DNA from: Candidatus Bathyarchaeota archaeon
Lineage (GTDB): Archaea > Thermoproteota > Bathyarchaeia > Bathyarchaeales > Bathyarchaeaceae
NCBI GenBank assembly: GCA_030669695.1
Contig: DAOVDC010000016.1
Location: forward strand, 1-10,815
Direction of reading: 5' to 3'
DNA length: 10,815 nucleotides
Notes under the pieces: model-generated
What the model was told of the DNA's origin: nothing
The model's database searches: none
What the model saw: only the letters and a program-made list of their open reading frames with translations
In this document: piece after piece, positions 1-10,030 of the stretch
Layout: each line of letters opens with the position of its first letter
Numbering within the stretch: position 1 is the first letter of the stretch
Translations under genes and position numbers: made by a program

Positions 1-1590
1 TATGGCTGAAGCAGCCATCCAGTAAGGGTCGATCTTCCCGTAGTTTGGGTTCATCCCACAAGAAATAACGACGCCTCTCCAAGAATCAGTTAAGGGTTTA
101 ATAACCGCTGCATCGTTCGGCCCACCATACTTTCCCTGCAATGGTTTCAGAACGGTGTTTCCTTTAACCTCATGGTCATATGTTCTTATCACGGACTCTT
201 TGCTTGCAATGTTTGGTGAAGACAGTATTCTTAGAAGTTCTTGTGTCAAGTCTGCTGGTTCAGCAATAGCTGGCTCTACGTAGTTTGGCGGTTTCCATTT
301 TGCGGTTCTTTTAGTCTTTGGAGGGGCAAACAGGAAATACAGGTCTAAATCAGCAACAGTGTGTCCTCGATAATGGACTTTAACCGTGTGGTCGTCAGTA
401 AATCTACCAATAGTAGTGGCTTCAACATCTTCGCTCTTGAAGATGGCCAAAACTTTTTCAAGATTTTCCTCTCTAACAGACAGAAGCATTCTTTCTTGTG
501 ATTCAGAAATGTGAATCTCCCAAGGAGCCATGCCAGGATATTTTAGGAGAACCTTTTCCAGTTCAACATAGACTCCACAGTTAGATCTGTGCGCCATCTC
601 ACCTACAGCGCAGGAGAGACCCCCTCCACCCAGATCAGTTATAGCTGAACCCAGCTCTTGGTTTCTTATATCCATGATGGCACGCTTGATCTTCTCTTCT
701 TCGATTGGATTTGCAATCTGAACTGCGGACCTTGACACTTCCTCAGATTCCTTTGTCAACTCTGCTGAAGCGAAGGTCACTCCATGGATTCCGTCTCTGC
801 CAGTTCTTCCACCAGCCAGAACGGCGAGGTCTCCAGGTTTTGTGTCTCTGACAAACTTGCTCATCGGCAGAATTCCAACACAGCCGCAGTAGACCACAAC
901 GTTGCCGACATAGCTTTTGTCGAAGTATATGGCGCCGTTGACAGTTGGTATGCCCATGTTATTTCCGTAGTGACCTATGCCAGCAACTACTCCTCTGAAA
1001 ACGTATTTCGGATGTTTTGTGCCGACGGGAAGTTTGTCATGATTATAGTCTAAGGGGCCGAAACAAAGAACATCTGTGCAAGCTATGGGGTCAGCCCACA
1101 CTCCAAGGATATCTCTGATAACGCCACCAGTGCCTGTTGCAGCACCTCCAAAGGGTTCTATAGCTGAAGGATGATTATGTGTCTCAACTTTCACAGCAAT
1201 TGCACAGTCATCTTCGAAGTCGACTATACCCGCGTTGTCTTCAAAAACGGAAAGACACCAAGGCAAGTCAAGTTCCTTTGTCACTTTGGCTATGTATTCT
1301 TTAAACATGCTACTTATGATTAGTTTTCCATCAGGCGAGACTATGTCTCCTTTGAAGGTTTTGTGAAAGCAGTGCTCCGACCATGTCTGACCAATTGTTT
1401 GAAGTTCCACATCCGTTGGATTTCTTTCCTTCCTTGAAAAGTATTTTTGAATACTCTTCATTTCTATGAGATTTAGACCAATTCCGAGTTCTTTGCTGAT
1501 TTGGAGTAGTTGTTTGTCATTTGCATCCAGTAGGTTTATGTCGGTGAGTTCGAAAGGCACATTCCGTTTCATGCAAAGACCGATGCTCAT
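1..1590 (-). CDS. purL: Phosphoribosylformylglycinamidine synthase, large subunit PurL (partial, C-terminus outside window)
   Basis: ATP-dependent amidation of FGAR to FGAM in purine synthesis, working with PurS and the glutaminase PurQ. The minus strand is open for 530 codons from an ATG at 1590 to the left edge, so the C-terminal part is missing. Visible motifs are WSEHC at residues 70-74, with the His expected to be catalytic, ETHNHP at 136-141, the Gly-rich FGGAATGTGGVIRDI stretch at 147-161, GGRTGRDGIHG at 260-270 and ITDLGGGGLS at 317-326. The last residues before the edge read DPYWMAASAI, which matches the start of the second half-repeat of the family. The ATG overlaps the purS stop as ATGA, and a GAGG lies about 7 bases upstream, indicating translational coupling. 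An in-frame Met7 is a less likely start. No frameshift was seen. purQ is not in the window. Confidence 0.95.
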   Translation of the reverse strand, partial: MSIGLCMKRNVPFELTDINLLDANDKQLLQISKELGIGLNLIEMKSIQKYFSRKERNPTDVELQTIGQTWSEHCFHKTFKGDIVSPDGKLIISSMFKEYIAKVTKELDLPWCLSVFEDNAGIVDFEDDCAIAVKVETHNHPSAIEPFGGAATGTGGVIRDILGVWADPIACTDVLCFGPLDYNHDKLPVGTKHPKYVFRGVVAGIGHYGNNMGIPTVNGAIYFDKSYVGNVVVYCGCVGILPMSKFVRDTKPGDLAVLAGGRTGRDGIHGVTFASAELTKESEEVSRSAVQIANPIEEEKIKRAIMDIRNQELGSAITDLGGGGLSCAVGEMAHRSNCGVYVELEKVLLKYPGMAPWEIHISESQERMLLSVREENLEKVLAIFKSEDVEATTIGRFTDDHTVKVHYRGHTVADLDLYFLFAPPKTKRTAKWKPPNYVEPAIAEPADLTQELLRILSSPNIASKESVIRTYDHEVKGNTVLKPLQGKYGGPNDAAVIKPLTDSWRGVVISCGMNPNYGKIDPYWMAASAI

Positions 1591-1838
1591 TGCGTTTCCT
1601 CTATGGTGAAGCTGTAGTTGTCCTTTGTTGGGTTCGCTAAGAGTCTTCTGCACATTTCGTCTACAAGTCTGTTAGCTTCTTTCACGGAACGCGCAGAAAG
1701 GGTGATTTCATAAACTTTGCTTACCTTCGTCGCTTCGACAGGATATCCTAATTCTTTTAGAGATTCTGCTGTTGTTTCTCCTTCAGGGTCGGAATGTCCT
1801 GGCTTGAGAGAGACCTCGATTTTAGCTTGGTATATCAT
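1587..1838 (-). CDS. purS: Phosphoribosylformylglycinamidine synthase subunit PurS
   Basis: Small structural subunit of the FGAM synthase complex, thought to bring PurL and PurQ together for ammonia transfer. The 83 residues match the usual PurS length of about 80. The N-terminal beta strand runs into SLKPGHSDPEGETTAESLKE (residues 10-29), the family's LKPGV-DP-G-A pattern, followed by LGYPVEATKVSKVYEITL. Its TGA overlaps the purL ATG by four bases, so the two products are probably made in fixed proportion. No Shine-Dalgarno site is visible. Instead, a TATA-like TTTAAATT centred near 1864 lies about 26 bases upstream of the ATG, as expected for a leaderless transcript. The gene therefore seems to open its own purS-purL unit, from a promoter inside the 49-bp element that is repeated before purP. 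Confidence 0.93.
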   Translation of the reverse strand: MIYQAKIEVSLKPGHSDPEGETTAESLKELGYPVEATKVSKVYEITLSARSVKEANRLVDEMCRRLLANPTKDNYSFTIEETQ

Positions 1839-1846
1839 AATGTAGT

Positions 1847-1895
1847 ATTAAACAATTAAAAATTTAAACTTTATTTAGATGAAAATTTAAATAAA
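1847..1895 (-). promoter_or_regulatory. purS copy of the duplicated 49-bp promoter/operator element
   Basis: Read on the minus strand, this contains TTTATTTAAATTTTC (1895-1881), a 12-base centre, then TTTAAATTTTTAATT and TTTAAT. It matches the element upstream of purP at 43 of 49 positions, with both 15-mers identical. The second 15-mer carries the likely TATA box, centred near 1864 and about 26 bases from the purS ATG. The first 15-mer contains the palindrome ATTTAAAT, and its TTTAAATTTT core recurs 23 bases downstream. The element begins 3 bases after the purM stop codon. The promoter role follows from archaeal TATA geometry; an operator role for the upstream half is inference. Confidence 0.65.
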
Positions 1896-1898
1896 AGT

Positions 1899-2984
1899 TT
1901 AAATGACTATTTCCAACTCTATCTTTTTCCCTTGATATAACGCAACAATTCCTCTAGAATCAGTCACTTTCCCAATCTGTTCAGCTTCAACCTGATCTCT
2001 TTCGAAACCGTCAATGAGAACATCTTTGTCAGTTTTGTCCGCGACTACGGCAAAGCCCCATCCCATGTTGAAAGTCCTCAGCATCTCGTCGTCCGTAATA
2101 GCGCCTCTCACTTTTGGAGCAGTTTCTTGAACAAGTCTGAAAATTGGTTGAGGCTTAAAGTTGTCGAACTCAAATCCTATTCCTTTGGAAAAACGCATCA
2201 GCCTATCGAACTTTAAATAGGCGTCACCAGTGATGTGAACCAAACCTTTCAGTTTATGCTCCTTAGCAGCATTCAAGACAGGTTTAACGTAAATCTTTGT
2301 TGGTTCCAAAACTTCGTTGATGAGTTCTCTTTCCAGTCCATCTGGAATATCATGTGGCTCATATTTGCCACCCCACTGCTTAAAAAGAACCTTTCTCGCC
2401 AAAGATATTCCGTTGCTGTGGATACCTGAACTTCTTAAGCCGATCACAACATCCCCGGGCTTAATGTTGTTTCCAAAGACTATGTCATCCTTAAACAGTT
2501 CACCTACACAGGCGAAGATCATGTCGAAGCCCTTTCCCTCTGTAACTCCTCGAATAATCTCAGCTACATCTCCTATTTCTCCGCTTGGCACTATGCACTC
2601 AGCTTCGCGTGCACCCTTCGCTATGCTTTTCATCCATTCGCCTATCAAATGAGGATCAGATACTTGAGCGTGAATGTTGTCTACAACGGCTAACGGTTTC
2701 GCGCCAGATCGGATGACATCGTTTACGGCCATTGCAACTCCGTCGATGCCTATGGTGTCATACTTGTTTGCTAGTTGTGCCAGAAGAACTTTGGTTCCGA
2801 TTCCCTCTATGACAAAATCGAGGTATCGATTGTCGATGGGAAAGATGTTACCGTAAGGAAGCTGAACGACGTTTCCGTATTTGCTGAATCTGTAGGTTTG
2901 TTTTAGAGTGTTTAATGCCGCTTTGGATCTTGCTCTTAGTTCCCTATCTACACCAGCCTCTGCGTATGTAAATTCCTCTGGCAC
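1899..2984 (-). CDS. purM: Phosphoribosylformylglycinamidine cyclo-ligase (AIR synthetase) PurM
   Basis: ATP-dependent ring closure of FGAM to aminoimidazole ribotide (AIR), the first imidazole-containing intermediate. Recognisable PurM features are YAEAGVD (residues 7-13), EGIGTK (60-65, replacing the usual DGVGTK), NDV (88-90), SSGIHSNG (185-192), EPTKIYV (227-233), HITGDAYLKF (250-259) and FNMGWGF (305-311). Several segments differ from the bacterial form: VVDNIHAQVSD stands where bacteria have FLDYFATGK, and PSGEIGDVAEIIRG stands near the bacterial GGETAEMPG. The start chosen is GTG at 2984, because AGGTGA at 2990-2995 is a Shine-Dalgarno site spaced 5 bases from it. An in-frame GTG at 2993 lies inside that site and has none of its own upstream. 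The length of 361 residues is normal. The gene follows purP by 39 bases and is probably cotranscribed with it. Confidence 0.92.
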   Translation of the reverse strand: MPEEFTYAEAGVDRELRARSKAALNTLKQTYRFSKYGNVVQLPYGNIFPIDNRYLDFVIEGIGTKVLLAQLANKYDTIGIDGVAMAVNDVIRSGAKPLAVVDNIHAQVSDPHLIGEWMKSIAKGAREAECIVPSGEIGDVAEIIRGVTEGKGFDMIFACVGELFKDDIVFGNNIKPGDVVIGLRSSGIHSNGISLARKVLFKQWGGKYEPHDIPDGLERELINEVLEPTKIYVKPVLNAAKEHKLKGLVHITGDAYLKFDRLMRFSKGIGFEFDNFKPQPIFRLVQETAPKVRGAITDDEMLRTFNMGWGFAVVADKTDKDVLIDGFERDQVEAEQIGKVTDSRGIVALYQGKKIELEIVI

Positions 2985-2989
2985 CAAGT

Positions 2990-2995
2990 TCACCT
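2990..2995 (-). promoter_or_regulatory. Ribosome binding site that decides the purM start
   Basis: AGGTGA on the minus strand complements the archaeal 16S 3' end (family knowledge) and stands 5 bases before GTG at 2984. It overlaps the alternative GTG at 2993, so both cannot be used in the same way. Confidence 0.6.
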
Positions 2996-4418: not shown

Positions 4419-4448
4419 TATATTTTCAGCATCTTTATGGGGTATGGC

Positions 4449-4497
4449 ATTAAATAATTAAAAATTTAAAGTTTTTGTAAACGAAAATTTAAATAAA
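4449..4497 (-). promoter_or_regulatory. purP copy of the duplicated 49-bp promoter/operator element
   Basis: Minus-strand TTTATTTAAATTTTC, 12 variable bases, TTTAAATTTTTAATT, one base, TTTAAT. This is the same arrangement as before purS with six substitutions, five of them in the 12-base centre. A TATA box TTTAAATT centred near 4466 would place transcription start near 4440, giving a leader of about 34 bases that contains the GGGTGA site. Similarity fades downstream of the last TTTAAT. The conserved upstream 15-mer lies outside the TATA box and may be a regulator site (inference). Confidence 0.65.
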
Positions 4498-4503
4498 GGC
4501 GTT

Positions 4504-4512
4504 AAAGAAAAA
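4504..4512 (-). terminator. Possible oligo-T terminator of purE-purC
   Basis: The minus strand reads TTTTTCTTT about 30 bases after the purC stop and just before the purP promoter element. Archaeal polymerase often terminates at T-rich tracts without a hairpin. None is visible here, so the call rests only on composition and place. Confidence 0.3.
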
Positions 4513-4540: not shown

Positions 4541-5404
4541 TTAAAACTTCCTACCGGTTAATCTCTCATACGCTTCAATATACCGTTGACTCGTCTTCTG
4601 TATAATTTCCTCGGGCAAAATAGGTTTCGTTAGTTTGGTTCCCGCTTTGGGCTGTTTTTTATCCCAACCCTTTACTCTTTCAAGGTAGTCTCTTACTATT
4701 TGTTTGTCGAAGCTCTCCTGCGTTTTTCCGGGTTGATATTTGCTTGCATCCCAGAACCTGCAACTGTCAGGCGTCTCAGCCTCGTCTATTAAAATTATTT
4801 TTTCAGTTTCATCTTTTCCGAATTCCACTTTGAAGTCTGCGAGGATGATTCCAGCTTTTTTTGAGTCTTTTAACATCAACTCGTTTAGTTTCAACGTAAT
4901 TTCTTTGACTTGTTCAATCTCCTCTGGTTTCAGCCATCCGTAAGAAATAATGTCCTTCTCCGTGATTGGCCTGTCTTTTGCCTCTAGCTTTGTTGTAAAC
5001 TCGATCACGGGCTCGCTGAGTTTTGCGGCTAATACGGGGTCTGTTCCTTCTGGAAGCTTAACTTCACTACGTTGAAGTCTCTTCCAGTATGAACCATATA
5101 AGTAGTTTCGCCCTATCACTTCAATGGGTATAAGAAAGAGTTTTTTGACAAGCATTTTGTCCGGGGCGGGAATATCTATCAAATGCGTTTCTATGCCAGA
5201 GACGCTGCAGTTTGTAAAGCAGTAGGCAGACAGACGACAAAGAACCTCGCCTTTATGTGGAACTTTATCAGCTAGCATTACATCATGAGAAGATAATCTA
5301 TCCGTGTAAACGAATAGAAGCTGTCCTTCACCGGCATCATAGATATCTTTAACCTTGCCACTTCGCAAGAAACGCTTTCCCGAATAATTCAACGCTTCAT
5401 ACAC
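4541..5404 (-). CDS. purC: SAICAR synthetase PurC
   Basis: ATP-dependent joining of aspartate to CAIR, giving SAICAR. Family motifs from the chosen start are GKVKDIYD (residues 16-23, the nucleotide-binding entry strand), RLSSHDVMLADKVPHKG (36-52), EVIGRNYLYGSYWKR (95-109), LADFKVEFG (188-196) and IDEAETPDSCRFW (206-218), the last two being the SAICAR synthetase signatures. The 287 residues fit the family's larger form. The start is uncertain. GTG at 5404 overlaps the purE stop by 8 bases and is preferred. An ATG at 5452 would add 16 residues lying inside the purE coding frame with no family resemblance. A TTG at 5392, with GGTG 9 bases upstream, is also possible. Overlap with purE suggests coupled translation; the products act consecutively, and in animals the two activities are fused in PAICS. 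Confidence 0.93.
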   Translation of the reverse strand: MYEALNYSGKRFLRSGKVKDIYDAGEGQLLFVYTDRLSSHDVMLADKVPHKGEVLCRLSAYCFTNCSVSGIETHLIDIPAPDKMLVKKLFLIPIEVIGRNYLYGSYWKRLQRSEVKLPEGTDPVLAAKLSEPVIEFTTKLEAKDRPITEKDIISYGWLKPEEIEQVKEITLKLNELMLKDSKKAGIILADFKVEFGKDETEKIILIDEAETPDSCRFWDASKYQPGKTQESFDKQIVRDYLERVKGWDKKQPKAGTKLTKPILPEEIIQKTSQRYIEAYERLTGRKF

Positions 5405-5906
5405 CTTCCAATCCGGAAATCCTCTTTCCCCGCACCTTACTATCAGCAACATTGACTTCTTTCTTTTTCTTCAATTGGAATTCACGGATTTTTTTGAGCA
5501 GTGAAGGATTTTCCAATGCAAATATTTTCGCAGCTGCTAAGGCGGCGCTCTCCGGGTCAAGGATAACAAGAGGCGCGACTCCGCTCGGCATCCTTAGAGA
5601 GGAGTAAACGTCAGTGCCTCCGAATTTCTCCGAGTATGGAGGACAAGCTACAACGGGAAACTTTGTGTTAGCGTCAACTAGTCCGGAAAGTGCATTAGAC
5701 AAGCCGGCAACCGTGATGTAAACTATTCTATCTCCAGTTTGCTCATAGTTTTCTAAAATGTTCAGTAAGTCTTTTGGCGTTTTGTGTGCTGAAGCTATTC
5801 TGTACTCGTAGTGAACACCAAAATGTTCCAGTACACGGCCCATAGGAGCCGCAAAGCTAAGATCTTTTTTGGACCCCATTAAGATAATGACGTTTTGCTT
5901 AGACAT
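5397..5906 (-). CDS. purE: Class II AIR carboxylase PurE
   Basis: Carboxylation of AIR to CAIR. The sequence follows the class II pattern known from Treponema denticola PurE and the animal PAICS carboxylase domain, which use CO2 directly and need no ATP-dependent PurK. Visible features are MGSKKD (residues 10-15, the phosphate-binding loop), ASAHKTP (38-44, catalytic His region), VAGLSNALSGLVDAN (66-80), ACPPYSEKFGGTDVYSSLRMPSGVAP (87-112) and PESAALAAAKIFAL (118-131). The class II AGRSN motif reads AGLSN here, with Leu replacing Arg. The start is ATG at 5906 (169 residues). A TATA box TTTATATA centred near 5933 puts transcription start on this codon, so an in-frame ATG at 5963, upstream of the TATA box, is rejected. 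The Lys-rich tail after residue 145 overlaps the start of purC. Confidence 0.93.
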   Translation of the reverse strand: MSKQNVIILMGSKKDLSFAAPMGRVLEHFGVHYEYRIASAHKTPKDLLNILENYEQTGDRIVYITVAGLSNALSGLVDANTKFPVVACPPYSEKFGGTDVYSSLRMPSGVAPLVILDPESAALAAAKIFALENPSLLKKIREFQLKKKKEVNVADSKVRGKRISGLEGV

Positions 5907-5927
5907 GATTGTATATTTCAGGAAAAA

Positions 5928-5937
5928 CCTATATAAA
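5928..5937 (-). promoter_or_regulatory. TATA box of purE-purC, leaderless start
   Basis: The minus strand reads TTTATATAGG, a near-consensus archaeal TATA box, centred about 27 bases upstream of the ATG at 5906. No Shine-Dalgarno site precedes that ATG. The geometry predicts a leaderless mRNA and fixes the purE start. The box lies in the 89-base gap after glnA, so purE-purC need not depend on glnA transcription. Confidence 0.7.
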
Positions 5938-5995
5938 CACGAGGAAAAATCACGCTTAACCACCTATCATAGAAACGAAAGTTTTTGAGGCTAAA

Positions 5996-7516
5996 TTAGC
6001 CGAAGTGTAGGTATTGTTCAATTAACTCATTTGTTTTATCGACGTCGTTCATTAACGTTTCTTTTAATCTCTTGTCCTTGTATCCATATAGTTTCTTTAG
6101 AATTCCGTTTATCGTTTGTTCAGGGAACGCGTTTCCTTTTTCGTAGTATTTTCTATCTTTCTCTAAATATTTTGCAGATTCGTAACAAGACTGTGGCAGC
6201 ATTCTTAACCTGTTCGAATTTTTTCTTTTCTTTTCTCCAAGCGCATCCACATAGAGGTCTTTTGCGAGTTTGATAGACTCTTTATTTGTTAGGCCGTACT
6301 CAACTGCCACGGCGATTCCAGCCAAAAGCAAGTAAATGTTTGCTGACCCGTCTGGTGTCCTTAATTCAATTGTTTGTCTATATTCATTCGTGTTCGCTGG
6401 GTTACCTATTTTACCGGGATTGATTTTTTCTGCCATGTTTCTAGCGGCAGTCCAGCCTAATGGAACTCTTACTAGAGCTGACCTGTTTCCGTATCCCCAG
6501 TATATCCCTGTTGGAGTTTCTTGATGAGAGCCATGTCTCAAGTAGGATATTGGCACCGTGTTGCCAAACGCTGTGAGGCTTGGAGCGAATTTTAGGAGAC
6601 CCCCAATTATCTTCTTTGCTTCGTCACTTAGTTTTCCATCCGAATCGGTCATTATGCTTTTTCCGTTTTTGTAGCCGCGAATATGTATGTGTAATCCGCT
6701 TCCAGCGTGACCGACCTTTAACTTAGGGGCAAAAGTGATGTTTACCCCGTATTTGGCACCGATGTTTCGTTTAATCCATTTGGCAATAATTATATGGTCA
6801 GCCATATCCTCTAATGGTTCTAATGAAAACTCGATTTCATGTTGTTCCATACCGTTATCCGGTATGTTGCCAACCTCAGCATGACCGTATTTCACCTTTG
6901 CACCAGTCCCAGCAATAGTGCTCAAGATTTCGTTTCTCAGATTTTCCCATTTAACAAAAGGTGAAGACTCATGGTAACCCTTCTCGGGTGCGCAAGGATA
7001 CAGGTCTTTTCTTTCTTGCCTAAATGCAATGTAGAATTCAAGTTCGCCTAAGGCTTCAAGTGTAACTCCCGTATTCTTAAACAGTTTTTCTTGCGCTTTT
7101 CTCAATATGTTTTCCGGAGCAATGTCAAGTTGATTCCCGTTTTTGTCGAAATAGGCACACAGAAGATTTAGGGTCGGGGTCTCATTGAAGGGGTTTATGA
7201 ACGCTGTTCTGTATTTTGGCATTACATAGAGGTCGCTTGCTTCCAAGTTGATGTATGAGAAAAGACTCGAGCCGTCTACTCTTTCTCCCATTTCTAAGAT
7301 TTCGTTTAGATGTTTTTCGTTGTTGATTACAAAGCTGAGCGATTTCAGTCTTCCGTCTTCACCGACGTGACAGAGGTTTACCATTTTTATGTTTTTATCT
7401 TTTACAAACTTGATGATGCCTTCTTTGGTGAAGTCTTTAGGTAACTTTCCAAGATATGTAACCAACGGATTGGGGTTTAGGGATATTAAGGTGGATTCAT
7501 TCTGTTGAATTACCAT
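5996..7516 (-). CDS. glnA: Glutamine synthetase, about 500-residue GS-like form
   Basis: ATP-dependent synthesis of glutamine from glutamate and ammonia in the cytoplasm. Residues matching the GS active site are present: Glu158 and Glu160 in GELEFY, Glu214 in HAEV, Glu227 in EQHEIEF, His276 in GSGLHIH, Arg327, Glu333 (flap), Arg345 and Arg350 in GNRSALVR, and Glu384 and Arg386 in IELRTPD. The enzyme looks catalytically competent. It differs from classical archaeal GSI: the two metal-binding Glu are 13 rather than 8 residues apart (GNIPDNGM loop), the usual TFMPKP reads TFAPKL, and it has 506 rather than about 440-470 residues. From memory of the family, it resembles the variant found in some Bacteroidota/Chlorobi (inference). 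The ATG has GGAAGTG 5 bases upstream. It leads the same-strand purine block, which consumes glutamine. A gamma-glutamyl-amine ligase is a less likely alternative. Confidence 0.88.
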   Translation of the reverse strand: MVIQQNESTLISLNPNPLVTYLGKLPKDFTKEGIIKFVKDKNIKMVNLCHVGEDGRLKSLSFVINNEKHLNEILEMGERVDGSSLFSYINLEASDLYVMPKYRTAFINPFNETPTLNLLCAYFDKNGNQLDIAPENILRKAQEKLFKNTGVTLEALGELEFYIAFRQERKDLYPCAPEKGYHESSPFVKWENLRNEILSTIAGTGAKVKYGHAEVGNIPDNGMEQHEIEFSLEPLEDMADHIIIAKWIKRNIGAKYGVNITFAPKLKVGHAGSGLHIHIRGYKNGKSIMTDSDGKLSDEAKKIIGGLLKFAPSLTAFGNTVPISYLRHGSHQETPTGIYWGYGNRSALVRVPLGWTAARNMAEKINPGKIGNPANTNEYRQTIELRTPDGSANIYLLLAGIAVAVEYGLTNKESIKLAKDLYVDALGEKKRKNSNRLRMLPQSCYESAKYLEKDRKYYEKGNAFPEQTINGILKKLYGYKDKRLKETLMNDVDKTNELIEQYLHFG

Positions 7517-8605: not shown

Positions 8606-10030
8606 ATGAAAGTTCTTTTCGTGGAACCACCGAAGGATTACTGGTTTGTCATGGGAGAATATCTTCCGCCACCATATGGAATCCTTCAACTCGCAGCGTA
8701 TCTCGAAAGCAAAAACAAAAACGTGGAAATAGAAGTATTGGACTGCCAAGCTAAAGGTTTAGATTGGAAGGCACTGGAAAAACATGTGGAAGCTTCTACC
8801 CCTGATATTGTTGCCTCAAGCGCACTTGCCACTTGCAATACCTACGTTGCCGTTCGAACCTCTGAAACAGCTAAGAAAGTGAATCCAAATGTCCTGACAG
8901 TTGCTGGAGGCCAACACTTCACAATGATGGCCCAGGAAAGCTTAGAAACTTACCCTGAGATTGACGTAATTGTCCGCGGAGAAGGAGAATTAACCCTTGT
9001 GGAATTAGTCAAAGCATCTGCTGAGAAAAAATCTTTTGCGCGAATAAAGGGCATCTCTTTTCGGCACGATGGCAAAATCAAACACAATCCTTCGCGCCCC
9101 TTGATTGAGAACTTAGACAACCTGCCATATCCCGGATACCACTTCGTAGAGGATGTGGTTCACAAATACCATTTCACCGCAATGGCGGGTCCTAAAACCA
9201 AGTATGCCCTAATCGAGGGATCAAGAGGCTGCCCACACCGCTGTACGTTTTGCACCCAATGGAAGCATTGGGAAGGCAGGTGGAGAACCAAATCGCCGAA
9301 ACGAATCGCAGACGAATTTGAGTTTTGCTACGAAAAATATGGGAGCAAATTTATCTGGCTGACCGATGACAACTTCGGATTGGGCAAACGTGCAAGCGAC
9401 TTAGCTGACGAAATCATCAAACGAGGATTTTCGAACGATATAATGTGGTTTACGCAGGTGAGATGTGACGATGTCGTGAAGCACCGTGACCTCTTACCCA
9501 AAATGCGAAAATCGGGCCTCCGCTGGACGCTTCTAGGAGTAGAAAGCGCTAGTCAGTCGACGCTTGAAACTTTTAAAAAAGGGATAAGACCAGAAGACGC
9601 TAAAACAGCCGTGAAATCATTACATGAGAACGACATATTCGCTCACGCGATGTTGATTATCGGAGAACGCAAGGATACAGCGGAGTCAATAGCACGTTTG
9701 AGAGAGTTTATGAACGATATAGATCCCGCTTTTGCGATTTTTGCGATCCTCACACCGTTTCCTGGAACCGAAGTTTTCGAAGAAGCGAAGCGAAACGGTT
9801 GGATCGAGGATTTCAATTGGGCTCATTATGACATGGTTCACGCCATTATGCCCACGGAAACGTTGTCAAGAGAGGAAGTGCAGGAAGAACTTTACAATTG
9901 CTATCGTAGCTTCTTCGGCTCTTGGGGTAGGAGATTGAAGGGTCTTTTCTCAACGAACGAAATAAAGAGGAGGGTCTTCTGGTACATGGCCACAAAAGGT
10001 ATTTTGAAGCAGCTAAGAAGTTTGTTTTGA
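8606..10030 (+). CDS. B12-binding radical SAM protein, BchE-like, function unknown
   Basis: Probable cobalamin-dependent radical SAM enzyme, a class that methylates or rearranges unactivated carbons. The N-terminal B12-binding domain spans about residues 1-140, with MKVLFVEPP, YLPPPYGILQLAAYLE (19-34), VAGGQHFTMMAQESLE (99-114) and VIVRGEGELTLVELV (121-135). The radical SAM core follows with CPHRCTFC (Cys209, Cys213, Cys216), the CxxxCxxC ligands of the 4Fe-4S cluster, then FIWLTDDNFG (249-258), TQVR (283-286), LLGVES (309-314) and FPGTEVFE (385-392). The C-terminal part (residues 400-474) resembles the helical end of BchE-like proteins. Length is 474 residues. Nothing here shows the substrate. 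Archaeal members of this broad group modify membrane lipids (for example GDGT ring and calditol synthases), so a lipid target is possible but unproved. It is followed after 3 bases by a membrane protein gene. Confidence 0.88.
   Translation: MKVLFVEPPKDYWFVMGEYLPPPYGILQLAAYLESKNKNVEIEVLDCQAKGLDWKALEKHVEASTPDIVASSALATCNTYVAVRTSETAKKVNPNVLTVAGGQHFTMMAQESLETYPEIDVIVRGEGELTLVELVKASAEKKSFARIKGISFRHDGKIKHNPSRPLIENLDNLPYPGYHFVEDVVHKYHFTAMAGPKTKYALIEGSRGCPHRCTFCTQWKHWEGRWRTKSPKRIADEFEFCYEKYGSKFIWLTDDNFGLGKRASDLADEIIKRGFSNDIMWFTQVRCDDVVKHRDLLPKMRKSGLRWTLLGVESASQSTLETFKKGIRPEDAKTAVKSLHENDIFAHAMLIIGERKDTAESIARLREFMNDIDPAFAIFAILTPFPGTEVFEEAKRNGWIEDFNWAHYDMVHAIMPTETLSREEVQEELYNCYRSFFGSWGRRLKGLFSTNEIKRRVFWYMATKGILKQLRSLF

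Follow-up and report, generated by a model that had tools for sequence, protein, structure and literature searches.

A purine gene promoter element with repeated TTTAAA-type sites in Bathyarchaeia: a candidate operator-promoter

The window, by which we mean the whole stretch of 10,815 nt analyzed here (contig DAOVDC010000016.1 of a Candidatus Bathyarchaeota archaeon), carries on its minus strand the gene order glnA-purE-purC-purP-purM-purS-purL, as read from its ORFs and supported by Pfam matches for all genes except purL (Table 1). The ORF that leaves the window at its first base is the one we take to be purL; in the near relative G002, purL is followed by purQ and guaA. The nearest relatives found are metagenome-assembled genomes of Bathyarchaeota, with PurP identities of 99% in G002 (locus L023) and 82% in G001 (L001). 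Directly before purE lies a glutamine synthetase gene (5996-7516), an arrangement shared with G002 and G067 that joins glutamine supply to the purine cluster. The window encodes a single PurP; G185, G068 and G069 (L071, L073 and L083) contain two tandem PurP-like paralogues with 24-29% identity to the window protein, the first paralogue of L073 being split over two ORFs.

Table 1. Positions of genes and promoter features in the window.
Feature	Position	Strand	Basis or remark
purL (presumed), runs off the window	1..1653	-	ORF; similar ORFs in relatives
purS, small FGAM synthase subunit	1587..1838	-	PF02700
Element, purS copy	1847..1895	-	R1 score 49.7 bits at 1841-1904; window sequence among the 16 in R1
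Site 3, purS copy: TTTAAATTTT, reads as TATA box with TTTT extension	1859..1868	-	first base 30 nt before purS ATG
Spacer with BRE directly before site 3	1869..1881	-	A at -3, A/G at -6
Site 2, purS copy: TTTAAATTTT, upstream operator-like repeat without BRE	1882..1891	-	
Site 1: TTTAAA, weaker repeat 12 bp upstream of site 2	1898..1903	-	overlaps purM stop codon
purM	1899..2993	-	PF02769/PF00586
purP, PurP-type, 460 aa	3024..4406	-	PF06973/PF06849
Element, purP copy	4449..4497	-	purS-only profile R1: 43.2 bits at 4443-4506
Site 3 (reads as TATA box), purP copy	4461..4470	-	first base 64 nt before purP ATG
Site 2, purP copy	4484..4493	-	sequence
purC	4541..5452	-	PF01259
purE	5397..5963	-	PF00731

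The gaps upstream of purS and purP contain two copies of a 49-bp element, which is the longest among three direct-repeat families in the window (seed 11, minimum length 20). An earlier sequence-only reading had described this duplication, and we could reproduce its core: minus-strand positions 1895-1847 and 4497-4449 are equal at 43 of 49 positions, two 15-mers are identical in both copies, and five of the six mismatches fall into the 12-nt spacer between them (5/12 spacer positions vs 1/37 others), so that the spacer varies in sequence at equal length. The spacing proved less rigid than claimed, as the distance between the two repeats, here called site 2 and site 3, ranges from 21 to 23 bp elsewhere. 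The similarity was also said to end sharply outside the element; instead, it fades on the upstream side, where the repeat can be extended to 60 nt at 82% identity. Low complexity is indeed insufficient to account for the resemblance: When 500 sequence sets were drawn from a Markov model of the gaps' composition, 49-mer identity peaked at 36 (mean 28) against the observed 43, and the pattern of the two 15-mers (≤3 mismatches) occurs at two places in the window and in none of 200 dinucleotide shuffles.

To describe the anatomy of the element we rely on an alignment of 33 element-bearing purS upstream regions, 31 of them distinct, with 30 rows used for BRE and hexamer counts (L088 dropped). In archaeal core promoters the TATA box precedes the start site by about 26-30 bp, with the BRE directly upstream. 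The general form of site 3 across promoters is YTTAAATTTT; within it, TTAAATTTT is invariant in 31/31 distinct sequences, which is partly built in because the rows were found by patterns and a profile containing TTAAATTTT. The distance from the first base of site 3 to the purS ATG is 29-33 nt in all 31 sequences and exactly 30 nt in 21. Relative to site 3, 30/30 rows have A at -3 and 30/30 have A/G at -6, which corresponds to a strong BRE by the rule given for Sulfolobus in the consulted part of PMC5817253. Given this BRE and the distance of about 30 nt to the ATG, we take site 3 to be the TATA box in a core promoter of the strong-BRE type, and the purS promoter is probably leaderless. Site 2 was considered as a second TATA box and rejected because T occupies -3 in 30/30 rows. 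The TATA box thus belongs to the downstream 15-mer, in line with the sequence-only reading, and the upstream 15-mer is devoid of a BRE. Site 2 matches TTTAAAT exactly in 25/30 rows (deviating in G049, G199, G188, G189 and G183) and precedes site 3 by 23, 22 and 21 bp in 18, 10 and 3 of the 31 distinct promoters, respectively. Site 1 is more loosely kept, with TTTAnA in register in 20/30 rows. An inverted repeat formed by sites 1 and 3 is present in the fold of the window sequence and was discarded: The pairing is not conserved, and TTTAAA is self-complementary anyway.

For comparison, we hand-chose 33 purS upstream regions from the 159 genomes in which purS was matched but the element gave no strong match (G191, whose contig begins 20 nt before purS, stayed outside this set). 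A [CT]TTAAA box occurs in the same stretch of 13 of these 33 regions. TTTT follows the box in only 1/13 of them vs 30/30 element rows, a contrast that is partly circular because the element rows were found with patterns and a profile containing TTTT. The contrast implies that the same ten letters are kept at sites 2 and 3, beyond the apparent need of a TATA box. At other genes TTTT followed 0/7 TTTAAA boxes, a count of little weight given a narrow intergenic filter that kept only two copies of the element itself. Ten of the element-less loci (L120, L125, L126, L129, L134-L136, L139, L144 and L146) have a different purS promoter in common, of about the form GATGAAAGCGTTTAAATCC; upstream of it, several of these loci carry TTTGC, possibly a regulatory site of another kind.

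The specificity of the element was assessed by genome scans. In four genomes the pattern TTTAAATTTT-N13-YTTAAATTTT was found with up to three mismatches at 15 places, of which five are exact, none has one or two mismatches and ten have three (vs 14 for the reversed control); the five exact places are all located at purS, at purP, or at purL of G004, where purS is missing. With at most one mismatch, 256 Bathyarchaeia genomes yielded 29 places in 27 genomes, compared to three places for the reversed pattern. All 17 exact places precede purine genes (purS 14, purP 1, guaA 1, purL 1), and the 12 one-mismatch places divide into four before purS and eight at other sequence. A profile trained exclusively on 16 purS upstream regions (R1) gave, under strict filters, 36 strong matches (E up to 8.8e-5) in 33 of the 256 genomes: 33 directly before purS and one each before purP (G002, 43.2 bits), guaA (G185, 39.2 bits) and purL (G004). 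Fifteen of these matches are profile members and 21 are not; among the latter, those of G055, G056 and G067 agree with a member at all 67 nt and the purS match of G002 differs by one base. The best match after the 36 scored 22.7 bits, and individual inspection extended down to 23 bits. Under laxer filters 12 element-bearing genomes returned 15 matches of 37-52 bits, all at purS, purP, guaA or purL, the next one scoring 17.4 bits. Moreover, an even draw of 398 genomes from the phylum, which overlaps the class and was searched under strict filters, produced matches of E≤0.001 in 17 genomes, all of them already known. Strong matches are confined to purine genes and the element is therefore not a general AT-rich promoter; a profile that hits AT-rich gaps as often as pur promoters, which had been named as a refuting outcome, was not obtained.

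Within the class, the element was found in 33/256 genomes from several branches and is tied to purS: A purS match was obtained in 191/256 genomes, 32 with and 159 without a strong match, although the strict filters may lose weak ones. We placed 66 of 70 loci (31 with and 35 without the element) in a PurL tree; four (G052, the first G001 copy, G194, G049) stayed out because their purL match had fewer than 250 residues or was lacking, and G044 was too short to be included. On this tree the element label requires five changes, at least three of which are forced by well-supported branches. In the PurL branch around the window 16/17 rows possess the element (G065 does not); the other element-bearing rows are found in separate branches, and the pair of G195 and G196 is sister to 15 element-less rows. 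The expectation that relatives keep the upstream site is thus borne out close to the window, but farther off the site is often absent (159/191). We favor an element that was present early in the class and repeatedly lost; several independent gains are a less likely alternative. In the element-less G180 (L122), TTTAAATTT is located at -54 from the purS ATG and the TATA region is changed to TTTAATAT, apparently a decayed copy that has kept site 2.

The copies at genes other than purS are rare. The second element copy lies in the 134-bp gap that separates purC from purP, both in the window and in G002; besides the window, only 1/29 PurP loci (L023, that is G002) shows it. Because the same gap measures 2 bp in G067 (PurP identity 97%) and 27 bp in G001, the comparison favors a gain in the window/G002 lineage, a loss in G067 being possible. 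Since site 3 of this copy lies 64 nt before the purP ATG, a transcript leader of several tens of nucleotides would be expected for purP. The gene guaA immediately follows purQ in G002 and G069 (by Pfam) and in G068 (by its first residues only); in G185 it is located apart from purQ and has its own element. The profile member nearest to both the purP copy (51/67) and the guaA copy of G185 (56/67) is the window's purS promoter, and because of this, within-genome copying is a likely origin for neither beyond doubt. In G001 (CP070759.1), which has two purS copies at 9219-9470 (L072) and 12540-12986 (L001), the first of them running into N bases, the second purS-purL copy is equipped with the element just like the first. 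In G004 (L032, L079) purL comes immediately after the element; there is no purS between them, nor is a purS protein match listed, which could reflect either a deletion or an assembly fault.

The sequence-only reading had interpreted the element as an operator-promoter shared by two purine operons and hoped for further sites before purF and other pur genes. The first part is supported insofar as the scans are purine-specific; the sharing with purP is limited to the window and the one other PurP locus. The wider regulon was not found. A search for purF in nine genomes gave seven full-length matches at 290-320 bits, which we call purF-like because all are below the family cut-off of 350. Paired sites precede 0/7 of these genes; a lone TTTAAATTT occurs in 0/7 within 90 nt and in 1/7 within 160 nt (G198, at -91, unpaired). 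For purA, likewise searched in nine genomes, 0/3 upstream regions (those with the 5' half of the gene in the loci returned) contain TTTAAATTT within 90 nt. In this sample the site accordingly does not stand before most de novo purine operons. The genes purB, purO, purD and guaB were covered by the whole-genome profile scans, which gave no strong match beyond purS, purP, guaA and purL in the 12 element-bearing genomes. The predicted regulon is narrow. It comprises purSLQ and in some cases guaA; purP joins it in the window and a single near relative only. Another conserved promoter without the element, GTCAAAAACCTATAAAT, precedes the start of the purF-like genes in G067, G002 and G068 (L212, L214 and L217). 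No common neighbor that could encode a regulator was seen near the pur genes in the ORF lists and among ten selected proteins compared with Pfam; regulator-type genes at 3-8 kb from pur genes are one ArsR-like gene (G051) and TFB genes (G047, G001).

How does the element relate to known systems? With a canonical archaeal core promoter it has in common the strong-type BRE and a TATA-like TTTAAAT located some 30 nt ahead of the ATG; it differs by the TTTT extension, by two upstream TTTAAA-type repeats and by its occurrence at purine genes only. Bacterial PurR regulons (E. coli, B. subtilis) resemble it in that the element would control de novo purine genes, but it has far fewer targets. A PurR homologue was sought with PF09182 (PurR N-terminal) and rejected: The family exceeded its cut-off in 0/24 genomes, with weak matches in 7/24 (E 0.003-0.08); of 14 control genomes, six gave matches, two of them over the cut-off. 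UV-response promoters of Sulfolobus likewise have a short non-palindromic motif upstream of BRE and TATA box: The consulted part of PMC5817253 describes an A(N)TTTC hexamer at -44 to -39, present at a reported 214 genes, linked to the UV response and bound by a protein then unknown. This hexamer, however, overlaps site 2 in only 16/30 element rows. For Halobacterium salinarum, passages of PMC3794607 report no PurR homologue by sequence and infer a purine regulator other than TrmB, with candidates from a network model. Archaeal purine genes under an inferred non-TrmB regulator are a parallel to the present case; unlike here, the candidates are named in those passages without an operator. The TrmB motif TACT-N7-8-GAGTA given there (PMC3794607) is absent from both strands of the window. 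A 2011 review of archaeal purine synthesis does not contain "repressor" or "transcription factor" in its main text (PMC3261824), and in the open-licence literature we found no archaeal purine operator of this kind.

Taken together, the comparison outlines a gene-specific architecture in which extra TTTAAA-type repeats are added to a core promoter made up of a BRE and a TATA box roughly 30 nt ahead of the purS ATG. From its sequence and distribution, the element is very probably a dedicated cis-regulatory purine promoter, and a specific regulator is likely to bind its repeats. We assign a probability of roughly 0.6 to the reading as a purine-dedicated operator-promoter, which includes the binding of a regulator and treats repression as the favored mode; for repression by exclusion from the TATA box, taken on its own, the odds are about even. 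The putative DNA-binding regulator would recognize the TTTAAATTTT repeats. When purines are plentiful it would occupy sites 2 and 3 and keep off TBP and TFB; when purines become scarce it would leave the DNA and allow transcription of purS-purL-purQ, and of guaA where this gene adjoins. Repression appears most likely because a promoter that seems strong by its BRE has one repeat overlying its TATA box and because the extension of site 2 recurs at site 3; this argument against activation is indirect.

An activator that binds only site 2 (and site 1) and recruits TFB and TBP when purines are needed, site 3 being just the TATA box, is the main rival, although we consider it rather unlikely. The position of site 2 resembles that of upstream motifs such as the Sulfolobus hexamer (PMC5817253, in part), and the near-fixed spacing between sites 2 and 3 would fit a contact with basal factors. 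However, the regulators in the consulted part of PMC5817253 bind upstream of weak BREs and the BRE found here is of the strong type; moreover, the common TTTT extension of site 3 (30/30 vs 1/13, partly circular) would be left unexplained. We regard as improbable that the promoter is simply strong and constitutive, with sites 1 and 2 acting as an unregulated AT-rich up-element that binds no specific regulator. T-rich upstream DNA can aid promoter opening and the whole sequence is AT-rich, but a nonspecific strength element would be expected at further strong promoters as well: There are no strong matches at other genes in 256 genomes and none between 17.4 and 37 bits in the 12 genomes, and TTTAAAT at site 2 in 25/30 rows is more than mere AT-richness.

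Function at the RNA level, as a terminator of the purM transcript or a leader structure, has very little probability. The T-rich coding strand, the location between purM and purS and the fold of the window copy (z -2.17) would be compatible with it. These RNA readings fail: Conservation of the fold is lacking (mean z -0.54 in 28 rows, L085, L088 and L115 dropped; 4/28 below -2; 8/28 pairing the same arms), the window has 0 Rfam matches, and the element keeps to the purS ATG instead of the purM end. It remains there in loci whose purM match stops 385 or 824 bp away, and it also occurs before guaA. With a leaderless start, moreover, the element would be absent from the purS mRNA. That two gaps are alike by chance or low complexity, both being AT-rich, is next to impossible in view of the shuffles and composition-matched draws, and the genome scans already make it untenable.

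For the operator-promoter, a broader picture can be drawn tentatively. An undescribed archaeal purine repressor or activator, present early in Bathyarchaeia, might act through direct TTTAAATTTT repeats of which one is the TATA box, such that a basal factor and the regulator would compete for the same ten bases; the arrangement might behave as a portable module that reached purP in one lineage and guaA in another. Little is known about the regulation of archaeal purine genes. An exact site, retained across several branches of a large class of uncultured archaea, offers a direct bait for the regulator, and the natural set of genomes with and without the element can be used to find the regulator gene.
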